Origin: a virus
Direction: 5' to 3' (one strand)
Length of the DNA stretch: 57,051 bases
IMG/VR virus record: IMGVR_UViG_3300025168_000102
Coordinates: 1-57,051 of that record
A program made the position numbers and the translations under genes. The notes below the pieces were generated by a model, which had not been told where the DNA came from, did not search any database, and saw only the letters and a list, made by a program, of their open reading frames with translations. Shown in pieces: positions 14,217 to 39,237 of this stretch (positions are counted from its first letter, which is position 1; each line of letters opens with the position of its first letter).

Positions 14217-17200
14217 ATGGCACAATTAGATTTTTCAGATTTTGTTGAAGTAGATACTTCTTCTCCACAAGAGGAAAAGAATAAGGCTATTATTAACCAA
14301 CCTTCATCCACTCTAGATTTTTCAGAGTTTGAAGAGGTAGAAACTTCTTCTGCACAAGAGGAAGAGAATAAGGCTGGTATTAGTCAACCCTCATCTACTT
14401 TAGATTTTTCAGATTTTGAAGAGGTAGAAACTTCTCAACAACAACCTCAACAAGAACAAGTTCAAACATCTTTAGAGATGGATGATCTTGATACGAATAA
14501 AAATTGGTTAAAAAATGCCAAGACTATTTATGAGAATGAAGAGAATGAAACGTGGAAGGGTGATAGCAAATCATTAAGTGATTGGTTTAAAAATAGACAT
14601 TCAGAAATAGGATTTGATATAACAAGCATTGGATCATTAGCTTATCGTGCTGATGACTTTGACGATGACACTAAAAAAGCATGGGTAGATTCAATGGATA
14701 TGTATGAGAATACTGATGCTGATACACTGTCTTTCTTTAGAGCTTTAAAAAATGTAGCTCTTGATCCTACTACTATTGCTTCAGTCGTAGCTACAGCAGG
14801 ATTAGGAACTATAGCTAAAATTGGAGGCACAAGAGCTGCATCATTAGCTGCTAAGTTTACTATGAAAGAACAGTTAAAAAAATCTTTAGCTAAAAGAGTA
14901 GGAGAAGAAACAGCAAAAGAATTTGTAGAGAAGGGAGTAACTAAAGGGATTAGTAAAGAAGTTTTAAAAGGAGCTAGAAAAGAGGCTGCTAAAAATCTTG
15001 GTAAAGCTCAACTAAAAACAGGTGCAGTAGCAGGTGCATTATATAGTGGTGCTGATAATTATGCTAGACAAAAAGCTGATATTAAATTAAGGGATAAGGA
15101 AGATGAAGACTTTGATGCTACTCAATTTGCATTGAGTACTGGATTAGGAGCAGCAGGTGGAGCAATCTTTGGTAGATATCTTCCTAAACTAGGGGAAAAA
15201 TTAGGACGTAAAAAAGCTTTGATGAAACAAGAAGCTTTTGAAAAAGCTGACATGCTTCCACCTGTACAAATAAAAGAAACATCTACAATTATTGAAAACT
15301 TATTACCAGAAGAAATTGTAGCATCAAGAGTTAATAAAGCTCGTGAAGAATTAGAAGTTAATGGAACAGTAGATATTAATCTTCAGGGAAAAAGAACAAA
15401 AACAAAAGCAGAAAGAGATTTAATTAAAGTTCCTAAAAAAACTGATAAAGGTTACCAAACAAAACGAGAACTTAAAGATAATTTATCTGAAGAAGAAGTT
15501 ATAAAAGAATTTGGGTTTCAAGATTTTGAGATTAATAAAGTAGGGCCAAATAAATTTATTGGTAAAAAAACTATTGATACTAAAGTAGATGTTTCTAATC
15601 CAGAAGTAGGACGAACAAAATTTCAAGAACGTATAGCACAGATTAAACGATCTATCTTTGATGATTCAGGATTGGGGGATAAATTTAAAGCTTTACGTAG
15701 TAGGTTTGATGTAGCTCCTCGTGTAATGGAACAGAATATTACTAGAAACTTTAACCGTCTTCAGAATGCCTTGAAAAAAGAACATGAAGGAGAGGTATCA
15801 ACTGAACTATATGAAACTATGGATAAAGCTTTTCGTGGAGATACAGAAGCTTTAGATATCGTAGCTGAACGAACAGGTACAGAAACTGTTAGTGCATTAA
15901 AAGAAATGAGGAATCAAATTCAATCATTACAAAAGAGACTGTTATCAAGTGGGGCTATTAAAGAAGGTTCTGATTTACAATTAAAAATTCAAAAGTCTCT
16001 TGATCCTAATTCTGATACCCCTGATCTTTATGTTACGAGACAATTTGAAGTATATGATAATCCTAATTATAGTCGAGAGTTTGATGCTAGACCAGGATCA
16101 GCTAAGATTAAAGAAAATGCTGGTAAATATATTGAAGGTCAACTAAGAAAACAATATAAAGATTATGATACAGTTAAAAAACAAATAAAAAATTTAGGAA
16201 TAAAATCTTTAAAACAGGAACAACTAGATTTAATAAAAAGATTTGAAGGAGCAGACGGAGAAGTTCAAAACCGTATTAATAGGATTCTTACTTTTAATGA
16301 TGAACAAGATGTAGCCACATTTTTTTCAGATTGGAACCCTATTAAAGGTAAAGCTGCTAGTAAAATCTTAACAAAAAGAGAAAGTATTCCTGATGAGATT
16401 AGGTTATTAATGGGTGAGTATAAAAATCCATTTACTAACTATGCTAATACAGCTATGAAACTAAATCAAACTTTAGCTAATTTTGATTATGAACAAGGGA
16501 TTGCTAAATTAGTAGAAAAAAATGAAATACCTAATGCTAGTAGATTAGCAGGTGGGCCTAGAACAGTAGAATTAGGAAGCAGACTTCCTCAAGTAGGAGG
16601 TGTAAATGATCCTTTAAAAAGAAGACCAGTAGAAGGAACAGACTTTAAAGAACCATTAAAAGGAATCCATGCTACACCTGAAATAGCTTCAGCTATTGAA
16701 ATGGGAAATGAAATAGGTAGAACTCAAAATAAATATATACAACAATTTCTTTTATTACAAGGACATACTCGTTCTGCTAAAACTGTTTGGAGTCCTACAG
16801 CTATTGCTCGTAACTTCTTAGGTGCAGGATGGTCGGCTACAGGTGCTGGTTATCTAAGGCCATCAGCTTTAAAAGGAATGGCTAATGTAGCACGAGGATT
16901 GTCTAATATATCTGATGATAAACTTCAAGATGAAATAGAAAAAGGTATATCATTAGGGTATATACAAAGTGGTACAGACTTAGGAGCTTTTAGGGGAGCA
17001 TTAAAAGATGCAAGTGAAGAATCTTTTTGGAAAATGCAATCTCCTTTATACAGAGAAAAAAATAATATTATTAATAGAGCTAAACAATTAAATACAAGTG
17101 CTGTTAAATTTTATCAATCAATGGATGATATGTGGAAACAGTTTGCTTTTTTAAATGAAAAACAAAATTATAGAAAGGTTCTTGAAGATCAAGGAATTAA

Positions 17201-22218: not shown

Positions 22219-22629
22219 TTATAACTCCCATTTACAACTCTTCATAAGTTTTTGCATTTCTTTCTTGCCTATTATCCTCATAGAATTTTGAATATCATTT
22301 ATTATTTTATCTGTATTTAATATATCATCGTCATTACTTTTATTTCCTCTAACACGAGACAGGATCTCAAGTGCTTTAATAGCACTGTTTGTATGTCCGT
22401 GTCCTTTAGCATAACTGTATTGATTTTCTAATTCAGATATAACATCTACATCTGTAGTCATTTCTTGTTCAGCATCGTAAACTCTTTGTTGAACTTCTGA
22501 GTCTTGTAACAATCTGTACCCTTGGTTATGAGCAGACTTTTCACTATAGCCAGCAGACCTAGCAGCTTCCGTAGCATTACGAGTTAGGATATAATGTTGT
22601 ACAAAAAGTTCTTGTTTATCATTTAACAT
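22219..22629 (-). CDS. terS: Terminase small subunit (Terminase_2 type)
   Basis: 136 residues. LNDKQELFVQHYILTRNATEAARSAGYSEKSAHNQGYRLLQDSEVQQRV is the Terminase_2 helix-turn-helix pattern ('Lt.kq..Fv.eYl...NaT.AA..AGYs...A...G.rLL....V'). TerS recognises packaging sites and recruits TerL. Here it ends the leftward arm, on the opposite strand and about 20 kb from TerL, which is unusual. It overlaps the next upstream gene by one base. Confidence 0.8.
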   Translation of the reverse strand: MLNDKQELFVQHYILTRNATEAARSAGYSEKSAHNQGYRLLQDSEVQQRVYDAEQEMTTDVDVISELENQYSYAKGHGHTNSAIKALEILSRVRGNKSNDDDILNTDKIINDIQNSMRIIGKKEMQKLMKSCKWEL

Positions 22630-22961
22630 TAATGAATCTCAACATTAAAACTTTCACCACAACCACACATTGATTTTACATTAGGATTCTCAACCATAAG
22701 TCGTTGACCAAATAAATCTTTTTTATAATCAACTTCCATACCAGCTAAATATAATACAGACATACCATCAAGAACAAGTACCCCTGAATCTAACTCAAGT
22801 ACGATATCATTATCTGATGGTTTGTAAGTATCTAAAGGTTGCCAATCATAAGTAAATCCTGAACACCCTCCTCCTTTAACTGAGAGTAAGATAGCAGAGT
22901 ATCCATTCTCAGATATGATGGAGGATAAGTGTATGTCAGCTTCTTCAGTTAATGTAATCAT
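22629..22961 (-). CDS. A-type Fe-S cluster carrier (IscA/ErpA/HesB-like)
   Basis: 110 residues. The three cluster-ligating cysteines are present: Cys33 in GGGCSGFTYDW and Cys99/Cys101 in MCGCGESFNV. Length and the start ITLTEEA are normal for A-type carriers, which take 2Fe-2S or 4Fe-4S clusters to target enzymes. Such genes are common in pelagiphages. Possible clients here are the Cys-containing RecB-like nuclease or host enzymes; that link is inference. Confidence 0.85.
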   Translation of the reverse strand: MITLTEEADIHLSSIISENGYSAILLSVKGGGCSGFTYDWQPLDTYKPSDNDIVLELDSGVLVLDGMSVLYLAGMEVDYKKDLFGQRLMVENPNVKSMCGCGESFNVEIH

Positions 22962-23368
22962 TTAGTATACTTCATATTTTCTCTAGCTTTTCCTTTAAAC
23001 TTTTCAGCAGATCTCATAGCTCCTAATCCTAACAAACTTAAAGTTAAACTCATTAATCCTTCGGTAGGTATAATAGGTATAGCCATACCACTTCCACTAA
23101 CAGCCAGCACCCACACAAATACAGGTTGGAAAACAAATTGCCACCCTAAACCAAAGGCACATATCCAAAGAATAGCAGGTCTTGCTCCACTTACAAAAAG
23201 ACTAGGATGTTTTGCACTCTCAATATTAGCTTGAGCTTGGGCTAAATCTAAAGCTATGACTTGTTGTTTTAACTCAGCCTCTAATTTTCTTTTAAGATCC
23301 TTATCTTCTACAAATTTATCTAAGACTTTTCCTGCTACCCCTACAACACTCTCAACTAACCCAAACAT
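22958..23368 (-). CDS. 3TM holin candidate (GTA_holin_3TM-like)
   Basis: 136 residues. N-terminal amphipathic and charged helix (VLDKFVEDKDLKRKLEAELKQQVIALDLAQAQANIESA), then SGARPAILWICAFGLGWQFVF, PVFVWVLAVSGSGMAIPII and LMSLTLSLLGLGAMRSAEK: three membrane segments. 'RPAI.W.C..gl' before a Phe-rich span is the pattern of the GTA_holin_3TM family. It would form lesions in the inner membrane. It is encoded with early leftward genes, away from the M15 endolysin. Confidence 0.7.
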   Translation of the reverse strand: MFGLVESVVGVAGKVLDKFVEDKDLKRKLEAELKQQVIALDLAQAQANIESAKHPSLFVSGARPAILWICAFGLGWQFVFQPVFVWVLAVSGSGMAIPIIPTEGLMSLTLSLLGLGAMRSAEKFKGKARENMKYTK

Positions 23369-23655
23369 TAATAGTCTTCTGGTAAGTTAATAGGTGTAAG
23401 TTTAGGTATAATTGCATCTTCATCTTCTTCCTCTTCTTCTTCATCTTCTTCATCTCTTAACAGATCAATATCAAAATGATCTTCTAAGACACATAGCTTT
23501 TCTTCAGAAGCAGCAATCTTTGTAATCTGTGAATCAACTGCTTGAACAAGATCAGGATGTTCTCCTATTCCTGCTGGGTTATCTAAATACACTTGGATAT
23601 TTGCTTTAGCTATAGCAATATCTGCCTCATATAACTTACGTAATGCATCTAACAT
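23368..23655 (-). CDS. Acidic helical protein
   Basis: 95 residues. Helical N half (LRKLYEADIAIAKANIQVYLDNPAGIGEHPDLVQAVDSQITKIA) and an extreme acidic run (DEEDEEEEEEDED, residues about 68-80). I recall similar 'Y...NPaGIGEHpd' proteins in marine phages without a known function. The acidic tail suggests DNA mimicry or protein binding, which is inference. Overlaps the start of the holin candidate. Confidence 0.65.
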   Translation of the reverse strand: MLDALRKLYEADIAIAKANIQVYLDNPAGIGEHPDLVQAVDSQITKIAASEEKLCVLEDHFDIDLLRDEEDEEEEEEDEDAIIPKLTPINLPEDY

Positions 23656-25931
23656 GGTAACATCTCCTTATAATGTTTAACTTGAGCCATACGAGAAGTT
23701 TCCCATATAGCTTTTACTAATGTATTTTCTCCGTGAACAGAGAACTCCATATCAACATCGTCTCGTTGGAATAACTTCTCACAATCTTGTGCCATTGCAA
23801 GTAGCTCTCCAGTAGTCCAGAATTTATGATCGTCTAAAGTTACATTCATAAACTTAGGTCTTCCATCTTTTTCTTTTTTCTTCTTTCTATTCTCTCTTGG
23901 CTCTGGAATTGTACAATCATACCCAAACAAATGAAATTTTCTAAAGCCAAATGTGTGCATCAAACCTATAGATCTCATAGCTGCACACGTTCCTCCTGTA
24001 ATAAATGTAGTTTCAGATGGGATATTTAAAGACTCATCCAATACCATTGTATTATCTACGATAGGTTTCTGCTTATCTCCCTCTGCTCTTAAAGTTTCTG
24101 AGAATGCATGCCATCCCCATAACCTATCTGTATTCTTTTTAATCAACCGTGTAACTGATGGGTTAGTCATTGAAGCTATAAAGAATATAGTCTTAGGATC
24201 TATCTTACTAAATAAACTATGTCTTACAATTCCATGTGTAGACTTACCACTTAAAGGTCTTGGATCTAGTATAACACATCCCCACGGTTGGAGGCCATGT
24301 TTTAATAGTTGTGGATAAGAATGTTTAACACAAACAATTCTTGTATTCTTTTGACGGCTTAGTTCTTTAACATGATCCCAATCTGTACTGTTCCCTCCAG
24401 AGACAAGAATGGCTGTATCACCATGACCTCTACCTTTCTCTATCCAGTTGGTCATAAGTTTTAAATTCTTTCTTATATTACCTACAATACTTTGATCTGG
24501 AACACAATCTCTAGGGGTAACTTGAATAGGAACTTGCATAACTTTAGTTGTTAATTCTTCGATGGTATCGTCAGTAAGGATAACAGCTAGATGAGTTATC
24601 CCTCCCTCACGTACACGATCACCAGAAGGAAGAACATATTTTCTATGTTTTGTAGCTTCTACAATTCTATTAACTTCTTGAAAGTCAGGATCAACACAGT
24701 TACCTTGATCATCTTGAGTTATAAAATCATCGAACACAAGAACTGGTATGTGTTTTAATTTAGAAAATTCATGCTGTACTGTCCTAGTACTATGGCCCCC
24801 ATCAATGAAAGCCATGTCAGCATTAATGCTATCAGTAAGAGTTTGATTAGTATCTCCTTTAATTAATTCATATGTAAATGTTTTATTCTTCTCTCTCATT
24901 TTCTTTCTAAAAGAACTTAATTGTTTTTGTACGTCAAACTTTTTAGCTATAGGCTTGGCATTTAATTCTTTAATACTTAGCTCTTCATTACCCTCTTCAA
25001 ATAAATCAAAGCCTATATAATGAAAGCTATCTCTATTTTCAAAGGAAGCTAAAGCCATTTCGATAGCTCGTTGCCCTATCCATGTACCTGTTTCCACAAT
25101 AGTTTTAGGTTGGTACTGTCTGATAATATCTGCTATCAAACCATATCTTTTAGCAGCAGCTAAAGGCATAGTCTTTTTTATTTGTTTTCTGTTTCCTTTT
25201 AAGTGCTCCATAAACTCAGTTAAAGGAAAAGATTCAAAAGCTTGTTTACCTTTAGTTAAATCAACAATATCTAAATGACCAGTAAAGTCTTGAACTCTCA
25301 TTCCATGAGCACGATAAATTATCATCAGTCTTTCAAAGACAAATCCATCATGCCACTCACGATAGTTTAAGACTTCACCTGAATCATAAGCTCCTCGTAA
25401 ATCTCCTAGTAAATCTAATGGTGCTCTGTTGTTTAGATTGAATGCCATAAAAGAAGTTTCACTATAAGCAAAATGTTTTCTTCCTAAGAAACCTAACTCA
25501 GCTTTATTATTTAAAAAAGATTCTATATCCTTACCAGAAAAATCTTTCTTTGTAAATGTATCAGCATCCAACCAGATTAACCAACCAGCTTGCTTACTTT
25601 CATCTGCCATTTCAAAAGCTTTATCCGTAAGAGCATAAACTTTATGACAGAATTTAATAGCATCCAGCCTAAAGTTATAGTCAATTTTTTTATTAGCTGT
25701 ACCATCATGTTCTTTATATGTCTCCCTAAAAGCTATCATCTCAGATATAAGATTTAAATTTCTATACTCTATATGATCACACTTAGGTACATCATGTTTA
25801 GAGATATCAAAGTCATGGTAGTATGCTGTTAGTTTTAAACCAGATTTCCAATGTCGAGCTGCAGTCTCTAACATTTTCATAGCATAAGTTTTTAAACCAT
25901 CTTCATTAAAAGAGGTAACGATATTATACAT
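23649..25931 (-). CDS. Three-domain fusion: glycosyltransferase, methyltransferase-like, DUF115-like
   Basis: 760 residues. Domain 1 (about 1-240) resembles a GT-A glycosyltransferase with a DxD at Asp122-Ala-Asp124 (WLIWLDADTF). Domain 2 (about 260-460) is like a class I SAM methyltransferase: VETGTWIGQRA at 279-289 and FIDGGHS at 375-381. Domain 3 (about 500-740) has ILVSGGNSTDWDHVKEL and HLFGYDC, as in DUF115/MptE-like proteins often linked to glycan genes. It overlaps the glycosyltransferase at 25924 by 8 bases. It probably modifies a glycan on the host surface or the virion. Substrates cannot be read from sequence. Confidence 0.65.
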   Translation of the reverse strand: MYNIVTSFNEDGLKTYAMKMLETAARHWKSGLKLTAYYHDFDISKHDVPKCDHIEYRNLNLISEMIAFRETYKEHDGTANKKIDYNFRLDAIKFCHKVYALTDKAFEMADESKQAGWLIWLDADTFTKKDFSGKDIESFLNNKAELGFLGRKHFAYSETSFMAFNLNNRAPLDLLGDLRGAYDSGEVLNYREWHDGFVFERLMIIYRAHGMRVQDFTGHLDIVDLTKGKQAFESFPLTEFMEHLKGNRKQIKKTMPLAAAKRYGLIADIIRQYQPKTIVETGTWIGQRAIEMALASFENRDSFHYIGFDLFEEGNEELSIKELNAKPIAKKFDVQKQLSSFRKKMREKNKTFTYELIKGDTNQTLTDSINADMAFIDGGHSTRTVQHEFSKLKHIPVLVFDDFITQDDQGNCVDPDFQEVNRIVEATKHRKYVLPSGDRVREGGITHLAVILTDDTIEELTTKVMQVPIQVTPRDCVPDQSIVGNIRKNLKLMTNWIEKGRGHGDTAILVSGGNSTDWDHVKELSRQKNTRIVCVKHSYPQLLKHGLQPWGCVILDPRPLSGKSTHGIVRHSLFSKIDPKTIFFIASMTNPSVTRLIKKNTDRLWGWHAFSETLRAEGDKQKPIVDNTMVLDESLNIPSETTFITGGTCAAMRSIGLMHTFGFRKFHLFGYDCTIPEPRENRKKKKEKDGRPKFMNVTLDDHKFWTTGELLAMAQDCEKLFQRDDVDMEFSVHGENTLVKAIWETSRMAQVKHYKEMLPC

Positions 25932-26700
25932 TTACTAATCCTTCATCTATTATTATTTTATCTCGTAGAGCTTTCCACTCATCTACGTATTCGTTTTCAT
26001 TAGTAGTTAATGGTGTCCAATTTGAAAACCAAGGGCCACCTGTTGTAAAATGTACATTCTTAGCTTCAATCTCAGAATTAGAATGACCATCTAACCAGTT
26101 CCATTCTTCATGGATATTACCAATAGGATTTATTGTTTCTCCTATCCATTCAAAGTTATGTAACCACCTACCAGGTTTTGTATTAACATCATCAGGAGTA
26201 AGATTAGCATTAGCTGGATGTCCACAATTCCATAACATAAAACTAGACCAGTTCTTTTTAGAATAATTTTGTTGTATTTGTTGATCCATTTTAAATATAA
26301 CATTATCACTAACAACATAGTCATGCCATATACACGAGACAGCATGTTTAGCTTCAGCATATTTTTCAAACACTTCCATAATGTCTGAACGAACTAACAT
26401 ATCACAGTCCATATAAATAGCTAGTCCTTCATATTGATTTAAATGAGGGACAAGAAACCTAGTAAAACTAAAGTCAGTTGAAAAAGGAAGACCATCACTA
26501 AGATCAATCTTTTGTTTGTTGTCTATAGTTTTATAAGCTCGTCTATATAATCCTATAGCTCTTAAAGCTGATTGATTTAATTTAATAATGTTTAAATTTT
26601 TAAAAGAAGAAGTAGATTTTATAGACTCTACAAGAACTTCAAAAGCTATGTCTTCTCTTTCATCGTACCCTATGTATATTGTAGGGAGCCGTTCATACAT
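25924..26700 (-). CDS. Glycosyltransferase, GT-A fold (GT8-like)
   Basis: 258 residues. IYIGYDEREDIAFEVLVESI (nucleotide-sugar binding start), DFSFTRFLVPHL, then the DxD motif Asp98-Cys-Asp100 in AIYMDCDMLV, and a distal VHFTTGGPW. These fit small GT8-like enzymes. Start behind AAAGGAGATCACA. It is the first gene after the strong promoter at 26734-26762 and leads into the three-domain fusion, so the two form a glycan operon. Confidence 0.75.
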   Translation of the reverse strand: MYERLPTIYIGYDEREDIAFEVLVESIKSTSSFKNLNIIKLNQSALRAIGLYRRAYKTIDNKQKIDLSDGLPFSTDFSFTRFLVPHLNQYEGLAIYMDCDMLVRSDIMEVFEKYAEAKHAVSCIWHDYVVSDNVIFKMDQQIQQNYSKKNWSSFMLWNCGHPANANLTPDDVNTKPGRWLHNFEWIGETINPIGNIHEEWNWLDGHSNSEIEAKNVHFTTGGPWFSNWTPLTTNENEYVDEWKALRDKIIIDEGLVNV

Positions 26701-26721: not shown

Positions 26722-26745
26722 TTATAGTATATAACTATACTATAA
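26722..26745. promoter_or_regulatory. Perfect 10-bp inverted repeat over a -10 box (operator candidate)
   Basis: TTATAGTATA at 26722-26731 and TATACTATAA at 26736-26745 are exact inverted repeats with a 4-base spacer. The right arm covers the -10 box of the leftward promoter at 26734-26762. A dimeric regulator site is the simplest reading; a short RNA hairpin is the alternative. Confidence 0.6.
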
Positions 26746-26762
26746 TTTTTTTAGTTTGTCAA
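26734..26762 (-). promoter_or_regulatory. Sigma70-like promoter for the glycan operon
   Basis: On the minus strand TTGACA (26762-26757, perfect -35), a 17-base spacer, then TATAGT (26739-26734, 5/6). It lies between the ribonucleotide reductase stop and the glycosyltransferase start, and reads into the latter. Confidence 0.8.
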
Positions 26763-26769
26763 CAGTTAT

Positions 26770-28461
26770 TTAACTGCATTCTTTTTGCCCTGTGTCAGGA
26801 TCAATAAAACAAGCTGTACCATCTATCTCTTCTTTAATAGCTGGCTCACTTTTATTTAAGATCCCATATCGTTTCCCTGCAAGCCTGAAGGTAGTAACTC
26901 CTTTTAACTTACCTCTCCATCCTCGTACATATACATCTTTAAATTCTTCAAAGGTTACACTATCCCCTACATTAATAGTTTTAGATACAGCACTATCGAT
27001 GTAAGGTTGGATGGCTATCTGCATTTTAATGTGGTCATCAATGGTTAAGTCTTCAGTTGTCTCAGCTTTAATTTTATGTTGAGCATAAACATAATCTTGT
27101 AACTTAACTATGATAGGACCATTCTCTGTAATTAAAGTACGATCTACTTCATGAGTAAACACAGGTTCAATACCACTACTGATATTGTCAGCCGTAAAAC
27201 TTATTGTTCCTGTAGGAGCAATGCTTGTTAGATGGCTATTTCTTATGCCTTGTTTTGATATTAACTCAATAAGATCTGTTGGAAGTTTCTTTGCAAAGCC
27301 ACTATTAATATAGGATTCTTTTTCATACAAAGGAAACGATCCTTTTTCTTTACCTAAGTTTGAGCTTGTTTCAATAGCAGTATAAGATAAAGTCTTTCCT
27401 ATCTTACGAGTAAACTTAACTGCTTGTTCAGATCCATACCTTAACTTAATTAGAGTAAGGCAATTAGCTAATCCAGTTACCCCTAGTCCCATCCTTCGTT
27501 TGTTCTGAGCCTCAAGTTTTTGTTTAGCTAAAGGATAATTAGTTCTATCAATAACATTATCCATAGCTCTGACAACATGAGGGATGTCTTCTTTAAACTT
27601 ATCAAAATTAAATCTATTGTTAGACACATACTTAATTAGATTAAAGCTTCCTAAAAGACAAGCACCATAAGGAGGTAATGGTTGTTCACCACATGGGTTG
27701 GTAGCTTCAATGGTTTCACAATACTGTAAAGGATTATCATTATTAATCCTATCAATAAATAAAACACCAGGTTCAGCCCACTCCCAATTAGCTCTCATGA
27801 TCTCATCCCATAAAGCTTTAGCATTTATTTCTTTATAGACTTGTCCTTTAAACGTAAGAGAGAAAGGAGTATCTTTAATAACACTTTGCATAAACTCATC
27901 TGTAACTCCAATAGAAATATTAAAGTTAGTAAGTTGATCTTGGTTTTGTTTAGCTCGTATAAACTCTTCAATGTCAGGATGGTCTACACGTAGCACACCC
28001 ATCATTGCTCCTCGTCTGTGACCAGCAGATATAATTGTTCTGCACACAGCATCAAAGATGTGCATAAAAGATACAGGCCCACTAGCAGAGCTATCGAGAG
28101 AAACAATCCTATCACCACTAGGACGTATCCTAGAGAAGTCATAGCCAATGCCACCACCTCTACGCATTGTCTCAGCTGCTTGTGTAGCTTTATCCATGAT
28201 GCTTTCCATACTGTCTTCAATCGTTCCAGATACAAAACAATTGTATGCAGTGACATCTCTTGGACTCCCCATTGCTGATTGTACTCTACCTGCTGGCATA
28301 AACCTTTGATTTAAAAGGATATCTTTAAGTAAAGCTCTATGATCTTGATCATCAGACATAGCCGCAGCATTCCTACTTACTGACTCTTCAAAGCTCTCAT
28401 TAGGTAGTCTATATTTTGTTGCGTGTAGCTCATCACAAACTGGCACTTGTGGACCGTACAT
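26770..28461 (-). CDS. nrdJ: Ribonucleotide reductase, class II (adenosylcobalamin) type
   Basis: 563 residues from the ATG at 28461 (TAATG overlap, AAAGGAG just upstream); a longer in-frame start at 28503 is less likely. Key features: FMPAGRVQSAMG, TAYNCFVSG with the first redox Cys, RRGGGIGYDFSRIRPSG, HRRGAMMGVLRVDHPDIEEFI, the active-site NPCGEQPLPPYGACLLGSFNL (Asn-x-Cys-x-Glu) and APTGTISF. No beta subunit or activase is in the window, which with the HPDI region points to class II. It supplies dNTPs for phage replication. The C terminus (ACFIDPDTGQKECS) is short but keeps two Cys. Confidence 0.9.
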   Translation of the reverse strand: MYGPQVPVCDELHATKYRLPNESFEESVSRNAAAMSDDQDHRALLKDILLNQRFMPAGRVQSAMGSPRDVTAYNCFVSGTIEDSMESIMDKATQAAETMRRGGGIGYDFSRIRPSGDRIVSLDSSASGPVSFMHIFDAVCRTIISAGHRRGAMMGVLRVDHPDIEEFIRAKQNQDQLTNFNISIGVTDEFMQSVIKDTPFSLTFKGQVYKEINAKALWDEIMRANWEWAEPGVLFIDRINNDNPLQYCETIEATNPCGEQPLPPYGACLLGSFNLIKYVSNNRFNFDKFKEDIPHVVRAMDNVIDRTNYPLAKQKLEAQNKRRMGLGVTGLANCLTLIKLRYGSEQAVKFTRKIGKTLSYTAIETSSNLGKEKGSFPLYEKESYINSGFAKKLPTDLIELISKQGIRNSHLTSIAPTGTISFTADNISSGIEPVFTHEVDRTLITENGPIIVKLQDYVYAQHKIKAETTEDLTIDDHIKMQIAIQPYIDSAVSKTINVGDSVTFEEFKDVYVRGWRGKLKGVTTFRLAGKRYGILNKSEPAIKEEIDGTACFIDPDTGQKECS

Positions 28462-28817
28462 TATTTTTTCTCCTTTACTGTGATTAATTTTTTTAAATAC
28501 CATTCAGCTTTCTTTAAATCTTCAATCCCATTTTTATATTTATACCTCCATAAATATTTCATTATATTTCCTTGTAGGTAAGACTCAAATCCCCCATCCA
28601 ATGCAGCTTCAATTGCTTGAATACATTCTATACCATGCTGATTGTAATGAGGTGGAGAGTTTACATTATCTTTATTGGTAGATCTTTCCGTAGTAATAGA
28701 TTTATCCTCCTTCTTATTCTCGACTTGTGTTCTGACTTGATAAGTTGTTGGGCGAACATACGAGTACTTGAAAACTCTACTCCAGCATGATCGCAAACTG
28801 TTATAAAATCTTGACAT
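28461..28817 (-). CDS. DUF3310 (SaV-like) protein; start uncertain, possibly ATT at 28697
   Basis: VNSPPHYNQHGIECIQAIEAAL, NIMKYLWRYKYKNGIEDLKKAEWYLKKL is the DUF3310 domain, often listed as a nucleotide kinase. From the ATG at 28817 the protein has 118 residues and overlaps the upstream gene by 157 bases with a non-conserved Arg/Ser-rich N terminus. AAGGAGGA at 28712-28705 followed 8 bases later by ATT at 28697 gives a 78-residue protein with a normal short N terminus, and no ATG/GTG/TTG lies in that interval. I favour ATT but report the long form. Confidence 0.75.
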   Translation of the reverse strand: MSRFYNSLRSCWSRVFKYSYVRPTTYQVRTQVENKKEDKSITTERSTNKDNVNSPPHYNQHGIECIQAIEAALDGGFESYLQGNIMKYLWRYKYKNGIEDLKKAEWYLKKLITVKEKK

Positions 28818-38197: not shown

Positions 38198-38335
38198 CTA
38201 TTTTTTATCAGTGGTGGCTCCAAATATTTGATCCATTCTATCTAATGTTTCTTTACCAGAAGATGACATCCTATCGTACTCCCAATAGAGATCGTTAATT
38301 AATGCTTTAATTTCATTTGTATCTATAACTCTCAT
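38198..38335 (-). CDS. 45-residue conserved-looking protein
   Basis: ATG at 38335 overlaps the methyltransferase TGA (ATGA); stop TAG 38200-38198. RVIDTNEIKALINDLYWEYDRMSSSGKETLDRMDQIFG. I recall 'LyWEYDRMSSSGqetLd' from short marine phage proteins. Helical, acidic; function unknown. Confidence 0.7.
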   Translation of the reverse strand: MRVIDTNEIKALINDLYWEYDRMSSSGKETLDRMDQIFGATTDKK

Positions 38336-39237
38336 AATAATCCTTTCAAAATATGTTCAATGGTTGCACAACAGAACGAGTTACCTAATGACTTGTACCT
38401 TTGCGTGTTGCTTACACCTTCAGTGTACCCATCAGGTAGCATCATGCATCTCTCACACTCCAGAGGAGTGAGCTTTCTCCATGTTGTCTCACTTGCTAAT
38501 ACTTTAGGTTCACGATGTCCACCTTGCATAGTAGTAAGAGTTGGTCCTTTACCTTTGGGGTGATACACTCTCTTGATACTGTCATGACCTTTGAGATCAG
38601 CATCACCTATATGACACAGCCCCTCGTCACTAAAGACTAACTGTCTTCTGTGCTTTTCAAAGTAAGACTTTAGATTGCCACCCTTAAAGTAATTGGCATC
38701 GATGCAATGAGCTTTATATCTATCTACATAGCCATCTTCTAAGATATCTTGCAGACAAATATCTTCCATCTTTATAGGGGCTATCGGTATATTTGTCCAA
38801 TACAATCTCTTACGAGATGCAGGAGAGTGTTCTGCTGAGTTAATCTCAACAGGTTGAACACCTAGATATTTACTAATAACATCTTGATGTTCTTGCTTCA
38901 TCTTTACGTTCTCAAAGAGAAACCATTTTGGTTTAATCTTATTAAACAAATGAATCCACTCAAAGAATAATCGTGAACGACTATCGTTGAATGCTAATTG
39001 TTTCCCAGCAAAGCTGAAGCCTTGGCAAGGTGACCCTGCTATCATTAGATCCACATTATTAGGTGGACTTTGATTTATTATATCACCCAAATGTATAATA
39101 TCTGGGTGATTTTTCTTTGCTATCTGTATAGCAAATGGATCTATCTCATTAGCATAGTATCGTTCTATTGGTAATCCAATATTTTTACCAGCTTGATAAG
39201 CTGTTCCGATACCATCAAATCCTGAGTGTATTCTCAT
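38332..39237 (-). CDS. DNA cytosine-5 methyltransferase
   Basis: 301 residues. Motif I HSGFDGIGTAYQAG, motif IV GSPCQGFSFAGK with catalytic Cys71, motif VI FENV (108-111), motif VIII SRKRLYW, target-recognition region about 150-255, motif IX RKLTPLECERCMMLPDGYT and motif X SLGNSF. No cognate restriction enzyme is adjacent, so it is an orphan enzyme that may protect phage DNA from host nucleases. Read from the promoter at 39302-39330. Confidence 0.9.
   Translation of the reverse strand: MRIHSGFDGIGTAYQAGKNIGLPIERYYANEIDPFAIQIAKKNHPDIIHLGDIINQSPPNNVDLMIAGSPCQGFSFAGKQLAFNDSRSRLFFEWIHLFNKIKPKWFLFENVKMKQEHQDVISKYLGVQPVEINSAEHSPASRKRLYWTNIPIAPIKMEDICLQDILEDGYVDRYKAHCIDANYFKGGNLKSYFEKHRRQLVFSDEGLCHIGDADLKGHDSIKRVYHPKGKGPTLTTMQGGHREPKVLASETTWRKLTPLECERCMMLPDGYTEGVSNTQRYKSLGNSFCCATIEHILKGLL

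Follow-up and report, generated by a model that had tools for sequence, protein, structure and literature searches.

What does a marine phage build with a glycosyltransferase gene that overlaps a second gene, in which sugar transfer and methylation appear to be joined in one polypeptide? The question is raised by a 57,051-nt stretch of viral DNA, positions 1 to 57,051 of the IMG/VR record IMGVR_UViG_3300025168_000102, referred to here as the window. On its minus strand, a 258-amino acid (aa) open reading frame (ORF) for a GT8-like glycosyltransferase (25924..26700) overlaps by 8 nt a 760-aa ORF (23649..25931), and both lie exactly where an initial annotation, made from the sequence alone, had placed them within 23649-26700. 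According to structural modeling, the larger ORF is a true fusion of a GT-A fold glycosyltransferase, a class I O-methyltransferase and a domain of the DUF115/MptE-Maf type. The pair is near-core in a largely uncultured clade of marine podoviruses. With a probability of about 0.45, we favor the reading that the two proteins work in the cytosol and assemble an oligosaccharide bearing O-methyl groups, most probably on a virion protein.

Domain architecture of the fusion protein

Pfam matches, fold comparisons and motifs delimit three domains in the 760-aa protein. Domain 1 (residues 1-250; 25182..25931, minus strand) is a predicted GT-A fold glycosyltransferase with a DAD motif at residues 122-124 and a WHDGF motif at residues 193-197. 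Domain 2 (residues 256-462; 24546..25166, minus strand) is a predicted class I S-adenosylmethionine (SAM)-dependent O-methyltransferase with the motifs ETGTWIG (residues 280-286), IDGGHS (residues 376-381) and DD (residues 401-402), and we take D401-D402 to be its metal-binding pair. Domain 3 (residues 464-758; 23658..24542, minus strand) is DUF115/MptE-like and a relative of the central domain of Maf, as indicated by PF01973, by its folds and by a partial match to the NCBIfam PseD model.

Two of these assignments are visible in sequence profiles. The MptE-like/DUF115 family PF01973 is matched at residues 482-675 with 49.2 bits against a gathering cut-off of 34.6 (48.7 bits in the relative from locus L020), and Methyltransf_24 (PF13578) at residues 279-393 with 34.6 bits against a cut-off of 26.3. 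The PseD model matches the DUF115 part in all five DUF115-bearing proteins compared, with E values from 8.6e-4 (window) to 1.5e-10 (L016). The N-terminal 250 residues have no Pfam match. Profile searches of the PDB returned nothing with domain 1 and nothing credible with domain 3, and the whole protein and the methyltransferase domain gave weak O-methyltransferase matches (best E 0.0056 and 0.008). Matches of the whole protein to L-asparaginases in the PDB (E 0.3) were taken as chance, as was the best-ranked NCBIfam model for the window fusion, that of a C-S lyase (E 7e-4, residues 57-168).

AlphaFold2, run on 47 sequences of which 46 are relatives, gave a model with a mean pLDDT of 87.0 and a pTM of 0.52, values at which each domain can be trusted but not the way the domains are arranged; a single-sequence model (pLDDT 33.7) was not used. 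In a Foldseek search of the PDB, GT6 galactosyltransferases ranked highest (E 1.6e-8), and both Maf (5mu5) and LARGE1 were among the ten best; GT6 is, however, not among the Pfam families matched by 24 members of the fusion family. A second aligner matched residues 1-252 to domain 1 of the chlorovirus PBCV-1 protein A064R (A064R-D1), the GT6 enzyme BoGT6a and glycogenin (Z 13.6-13.8), and residues 259-455 to TrmR, COMT and the sugar O-methyltransferases CalS11, MycF and SpnH (Z 14-15.5), the sugar O-methyltransferase structures 3tos, 4xvz and 4ce0 having Z of about 14. Residues 471-734 aligned with Methanocaldococcus jannaschii HPPK/MptE (8sd5; Z 14.4, root-mean-square deviation (rmsd) 3.4, 196 residues), while residues 62-498 of Maf 5mu5 aligned with residues 259-740 of the model (Z 19.2, rmsd 14.7). 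In the window, the profile score, the SAM motif and the intact acidic site of domain 2 are those of a metal-dependent sugar O-methyltransferase. The initial annotation had named this glycosyltransferase, methyltransferase and DUF115 combination and proposed structure prediction as a check; between the AlphaFold2 model, the PDB matches and Pfam, each domain matches its fold and none failed.

The companion protein is assigned by its ORF, its DxD motif and a match to phrog_28018 (E 7e-45). The motif reads MDCDM, with both aspartates invariant in all 21 alignment rows. Against the PDB, the protein gives weak matches to the GT8 structure 5gvv and to WbbM (E 0.006-0.008). The GT8 label given earlier stands for nine of the 21 family members, which match PF01501 (best 2.6e-7), whereas the window's own protein matches no GT8 model; "GT8-like" is used here in this sense.

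Distribution and conservation of the gene pair

A search for the fusion in viral metagenomes, likewise proposed in the initial annotation, was carried out by scanning IMG/VR contigs with the fusion alignment. In at least 587 of the 598 candidates, the DNA codes for a relative (tblastn E up to 1e-3), in some cases perhaps for one of the domains only, and the best 80 were kept. The count came to 110 fusion ORFs of 500 aa or more, a threshold that omits contig-end fragments such as those of L026, L027, L030 and L037. As the 110 include contigs fetched twice, the fair number is 81 unique sequences, comprising 72 with three domains and nine with two, which lack the methyltransferase. The three-domain relatives range down to about 40% identity. 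A GT8-like gene lies at most 600 nt upstream of the fusion in 110 of 110 cases and overlaps it in 90.

The glycosyltransferase motifs DAD and WHDGF are present in all 72 unique three-domain sequences, as are DPR and STHG of the DUF115 domain, with GGTC in 71. Three pairs of close relatives have ratios of nonsynonymous to synonymous substitution (dN/dS) of 0.04-0.10, indicating purifying selection in all three domains. In comparisons with the window itself synonymous sites are near saturation, and the corresponding proportions (pN/pS) are 0.15-0.31 for the fusion domains and 0.33-0.38 for the GT8-like gene.

To avoid selecting genomes by the fusion itself, contigs were also searched for by their major capsid protein (MCP), with 80 loci kept. 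Eight of the ten longest MCP-selected contigs match the fusion, including all seven of at least 45 kb, one of which (G006) carries the two-domain form. The eighth matches by the DUF115 end only, at the contig edge, and the two non-matching contigs are 31 and 28 kb long. The glycan gene pair is thus near-core in this clade. Nine module-bearing genomes share the glycan module alongside terminase, portal and capsid genes. A contig of 106,894 bases (L070/G019) has two major capsid genes and is probably a doubled or chimeric assembly.

Among named records, the best terminase and capsid matches place the window phage near the HTVC023P-type podoviruses, including HTVC023P, HTVC027P, DSL-LC04, 023Pt_psg01 and CRP-901/902 (capsid 48-55%, terminase 32-41%). 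In the first 50 kb of each of HTVC023P, HTVC027P, DSL-LC04, 023Pt_psg01 and CRP-902, neither gene was matched. The same five phages are also absent among the fusion matches over whole records at E 1e-5, a search of 50,697 phage records in which just two match, both by the glycosyltransferase domain only. HTVC023P (L046), HTVC027P (L047) and 023Pt_psg01 (L254), which have no glycan pair, have annotated 2OG-Fe(II) oxygenases near their tail genes, and HTVC027P also has a gene annotated as a glycosyltransferase. A scan of GTDB genome contigs for a cellular relative gave eight pattern matches, none of them confirmed.

The methyltransferase domain as a changeable part

Comparison of these sequences indicates that the methyltransferase is the changeable domain of the fusion, being swapped in frame, lost or decayed, with the glycosyltransferase motifs fixed. 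Exchange is seen among the loci L002, L051 and L056 at sites where two sequences agree against the third. In the glycosyltransferase domain, 83 such sites group L002 with L051 against 36 and 19 for the other pairings, and in DUF115 the counts are 103 against 24 and 23. In the methyltransferase domain, it is L002 and L056 that group together (96 against 33 and 29), which marks a recombination event that exchanged this domain in frame.

Decay is evident at the presumed metal site, since the DD pair is kept in 60 of the 72 unique three-domain sequences and altered in 12. Three of the 12 (L082, L100 and L104) also have changed SAM and IDGGHS motifs, and all three of these phages have a free-standing methyltransferase homologue upstream. 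That of L104 (L104:2288-2941) is whole, with its motifs intact. In the record of L082 (G027:10000-10664, minus strand), the homologue is 89% identical over residues 1-179 and continues with residues 172-217 in another frame, which may mean a broken gene or a misreading of the sequence. In the record of L100 (G028:13695-13751, minus strand), it is cut by the contig end, leaving the last 19 residues, which are identical. In the flanks examined, the other loci showed no such separate homologue.

Loss is the third route. The methyltransferase is wholly absent from nine of the 81 unique fusions, and in a tree of the glycosyltransferase domain these two-domain forms nest inside the three-domain ones. 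This nesting suggests that they arose by loss of the methyltransferase, in a tree that has long-branch outgroups and one weakly supported key fork (90/65).

Two further arrangements were observed. Beside its full fusion, G007 (the record of L169) carries at 15784-17076 a second, 455-aa paralogue with glycosyltransferase and methyltransferase parts and no DUF115 match. In L028 (3542-8799), the two-domain fusion is directly followed by genes for a metallophosphoesterase, a weakly matched GT2 enzyme, an FkbM methyltransferase, a UDP-glucose dehydrogenase, an epimerase and a C-methyltransferase.

Promoter and neighboring genes

The initial annotation described the pair as driven by a strong promoter, TTGACA-17-TATAGT, marked by a palindrome. 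This sigma-70-type promoter is present in the gap between the genes for ribonucleotide reductase (RNR) and the GT8-like protein (26734..26762, minus strand, reading 26762..26734). Taken alone, a bare match of this kind is weak evidence, as shuffled sequence gives more matches than the real one: 64 consensus sites were found between 20 and 39 kb, four of them scoring 11/12, against 80.7 expected. The site gains weight from its recurrence: the RNR-GT8 interval of the window and of each of the five close relatives checked contains, in coding-strand orientation, an unaltered TTGACA followed after 17 nt by TAnnnT, with a score of 10/12 or more. Same-strand sites that fit this description number 16 over the 57 kb of the window and two to six in the 9-18 kb of the relatives. 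The intervals span 70 to 1481 nt in the window and the five relatives. Similar promoter surroundings are shared by L002, L003, L051 and L056, so the recurrence amounts to about three independent observations.

The palindrome, with 10-nt arms and a 4-nt loop, overlaps the -10 hexamer (26722..26745) and occurs once in the window. It is real, as had been noted; what did not hold is its role as a family-wide mark. In 19 relatives, its sequence was not found in the 110 nt preceding the called start of the GT8-like gene. Because some called starts lie too far upstream, the surroundings of the promoter were inspected as well in the five close relatives, and it was not found there either. L002 and L051 have another, shorter inverted repeat with 6-nt arms over the -10. 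These may be chance in AT-rich DNA, or an inverted repeat at this position may be kept as a principle rather than as a sequence.

Downstream, the end of the fusion gene overlaps the gene of an acidic 95-aa protein (phrog_1811; 23368..23655, minus strand), to which short related ORFs were found only in L051, L122 and L123 among the loci compared. The order continues with a holin (GTA_holin_3TM; 22958..23368, minus strand), an Fe-S cluster biosynthesis protein (PF01521; 22629-22961) and the small terminase (TerS; 22219..22629, minus strand). Upstream of the GT8-like gene, the short promoter-bearing gap is followed by RNR (26770..28503, minus strand). Among the 72 unique three-domain loci, holin is a neighbor in 44, TerS in 58 and RNR in 47, counts that are lowered by contig ends, many contigs being short. 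The terminase, portal, GroES and capsid genes lie on the opposite strand, from 42084.

The RNR of the window is 82-84% identical to those of L002, L003, L030 and L031 and about 24% identical to those of many other loci, and in L020 the same spot holds an RNR of phrog_367 that BLAST does not match with it. Judging from these sequences, the upstream gene seems to have been replaced in place by unlike types.

Proposed function and alternative explanations

The favored reading can be set out as a series of steps. The GT8-like enzyme and the GT-A domain of the fusion would each attach one sugar supplied by a nucleotide-sugar donor, DUF115 would act as a third, Maf-type transferase, and the middle domain would O-methylate a sugar, probably the terminal one. 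The catalytic activities, the identities of the sugars and the order of these steps are what we infer, while the ORFs, folds and motifs, the conservation of the pair and across the clade, and the swapping and decay of the methyltransferase were computed. The nucleotide sugars would presumably be made by the host, as the 46 ORFs of the window that were scanned included none for sugar-nucleotide synthesis (at least 16 further likely genes, mostly small, lie outside the scan). A single promoter could serve the pair as well as holin and small terminase, placing it among late functions. The target would be a virion protein, to which the glycan is attached in the cytosol while particles are being assembled or earlier, as in the Maf/flagellin and A064R/capsid glycan systems. 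This choice of target is suggested by the near-core conservation, by the shared neighborhood of holin and terminase genes, and by three precedents, A064R, Maf and mycobacteriophage capsids. The changeability of the methyltransferase, which fits a cap, and the sugar-related genes that L028 adds also speak for the reading as a whole.

Several points weigh against this reading. Catalysis and virion glycosylation are both predictions from sequence and models, and no structural gene adjoins the glycan pair. Domain 1 has no convincing match to the sequence profile of any known glycosyltransferase family. Among the matches of DUF115 is archaeal HPPK (MptE), an enzyme other than a glycosyltransferase, and the likeness to Maf is confined to this one domain: the full-length PseD/Maf model NF050051 scores 18-40 bits in all five proteins, against a cut-off of 670. 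With holin downstream in 44 and TerS in 58 of the 72 loci, the shared-promoter argument is partial. The sugar cassette of L028 would suit lipopolysaccharide (LPS) or capsule equally. No tRNA that might hint at the host was found. A comparison of gene content for a substrate protein that tracks with the module, between the nine genomes that carry it and the first 50 kb of the five phage records without it, was not decisive because the nine were chosen for the module, belong to one clade and share too many clade-specific genes.

The main rival, a real though lesser possibility, is that the acceptor is a glycan of the host surface (LPS core, O-antigen or a capsule precursor), altered as a receptor against superinfection or against the sticking of progeny to debris. 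GT8-type transferases are common in LPS synthesis, the L028 cassette resembles polysaccharide sugar-nucleotide synthesis, and the pelagiphage Mosig has unfused relatives of both glycosyltransferases beside annotated methyltransferases and a sulfotransferase. In addition, a pelagimyophage survey cited in the introduction of PMC9599517 groups phage glycosyltransferases with LPS modification. However, neither a flippase nor a polyprenyl-carrier enzyme nor a ligase was found among the 46 scanned ORFs, and the pair often shares strand and neighborhood with holin and TerS, which is late for receptor alteration. Moreover, superinfection-exclusion genes are usually patchy, whereas the glycan pair is near-core in its clade.

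It is improbable that DUF115 is an MptE-like diphosphokinase, or a non-catalytic scaffold binding the acceptor for the glycosyltransferase and methyltransferase domains. The fold match to M. jannaschii HPPK (Z 14.4, residues 471-734) speaks for such a role, as does the naming of PF01973 after MptE. Yet the domain sits in a protein with glycosyltransferase and methyltransferase domains and with a glycosyltransferase gene adjoining, and the central domain of Maf, a protein needed for flagellin glycosylation, belongs to the same Pfam family. The invariant STHG and DPR motifs, with GGTC in 71 of 72, suit catalysis without saying which.

Glycosylation of DNA, one of the options in the initial annotation, would place sugars on modified bases of the phage DNA, as in T4, and is very unlikely. 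Phage glycosyltransferases can act on DNA, and the portion of PMC9599517 available names this possibility for those of this phage type. Nevertheless, the 46 scanned ORFs include no gene of the dCMP/dUMP hydroxymethylase type, though at least 16 likely genes fall outside that scan. The sole DNA methylase, a C5-cytosine enzyme at 38332-39237, has a tblastn match in just one of nine related genomes. No DNA acceptor is known to us for Maf or for sugar O-methyltransferases. The combination of sugar transfer and methylation in one operon, which the initial annotation had also claimed, is well supported by the folds and motifs of the predicted enzymes; as to target, which that annotation had left open, the virion is somewhat favored over the host surface and DNA is disfavored.

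A chance fusion, through a stop codon lost only in this contig (a refuter named in the initial annotation) or a frame artefact, is already refuted by the 72 three-domain and nine two-domain relatives, by purifying selection in all three domains and by a separate metagenomic protein (A0A6J7X5Q0, 714 aa, 29% identity over 766 columns), and no point supporting it was found.

A bolder form of the virion reading, which we regard as doubtful, is that this marine podovirus clade carries a near-core, self-contained machine for cytosolic protein O-glycosylation, in which DUF115 starts the chain on a virion protein, the two GT-A enzymes extend it and an exchangeable methyltransferase caps it. If true, recombination, loss and relocation of the methyltransferase cassette would diversify the surface chemistry of the particle, as capsid glycans do in giant viruses. 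On this view, the degenerate N-terminal Rossmann domain of Maf may also be linked to an ancestral methyltransferase.

Comparison with known systems

In the literature on MptE-like/DUF115 proteins and on phage glycosylation, covered partly at the level of titles and abstracts, no description of such a phage fusion was found. The genome paper on HTVC023P-type phages, in its available part, mentions glycosyltransferases twice and never uses the word methyltransferase. The statement in the initial annotation that no system of this form had been described therefore agrees with the phage literature searched, and needs to be qualified by a close analogue outside it, the chlorovirus protein A064R. Viral multidomain proteins of the type glycosyltransferase-glycosyltransferase-methyltransferase are thus already known, and what was not found described is a fusion with DUF115, in phages, near-core and with a companion GT8-like enzyme.

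A064R of PBCV-1 (638 aa) likewise combines two sugar-transferase domains and an O-methyltransferase in one viral polypeptide. It acts on the capsid glycan of the chlorovirus, where its third domain places a methyl group on O-2 of the terminal rhamnose in the N-glycan of PBCV-1, according to PMC9614988. The N-terminal domain of the window protein shares the GT-A fold of A064R-D1 (2p72/2p73, Z 13.8, 177-180 residues aligned), a likeness at the fold level only, as the Z score is tied with those of GT6 and glycogenin. Unlike A064R, in which the methyltransferase is C-terminal, the window protein has it in the middle, between glycosyltransferase and DUF115; its partner is a separate GT8-like protein, its host is bacterial and its activity is predicted only.

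The Maf/PseD flagellin glycosyltransferases have PF01973 as their central domain, a family in which the window DUF115 scores above the Pfam cut-off. The Maf 5mu5 match, the best obtained with the whole model, spans residues 259-740, so that in both proteins a Rossmann domain precedes DUF115, the Rossmann match itself being generic. Maf-dependent flagellin glycosylation occurs in the cytosol, as stated in the available part of PMC4065374. The rmsd of 14.7 indicates that the domain arrangement differs, and the fusion has an extra GT-A domain. The fusion also retains SAM and metal motifs in its Rossmann domain, whereas that of Maf is described, in the source as available, as degenerated. Archaeal MptE, a 6-hydroxymethylpterin diphosphokinase, shares the HPPK/MptE fold of domain 3, and the glycan-gene context argues against pterin diphosphokinase activity.

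Among phages, Mosig EXVC030M (Kyanoviridae) encodes in gp188-gp191 adjacent, unfused relatives of the GT8-like protein (38%) and of the fusion glycosyltransferase domain (24%), both beside the genes annotated as methyltransferases and sulfotransferase. These are separate genes, the methyltransferases did not match the profile of the fusion's own, and the 12.6 kb of Mosig examined gave no match to DUF115. Protein A0A6J7X5Q0, from an uncultured Caudovirales phage, appears to be this three-domain protein again (E 1.6e-60 for the fold match), and it has an automatic name only ("Methyltransferase domain containing protein"). For the mycobacteriophages Che8 and Rita, covalent glycans on the major capsid protein are reported in PMC11256854, and the related Maravista encodes glycosyltransferases; the available part of that paper mentions no methyltransferase or DUF115 fusion.

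Taken with these systems, the locus offers a concrete case in which some marine phages may decorate their particles, or their hosts, with methylated glycans by means of a single fused enzyme. It would be a phage counterpart to the chlorovirus glycan enzyme A064R, with a domain of the flagellin-glycosyltransferase type in a phage role. Within this one protein family, the capping domain appears swapped, broken, lost or moved to a separate gene, around a core for sugar transfer that is fixed.

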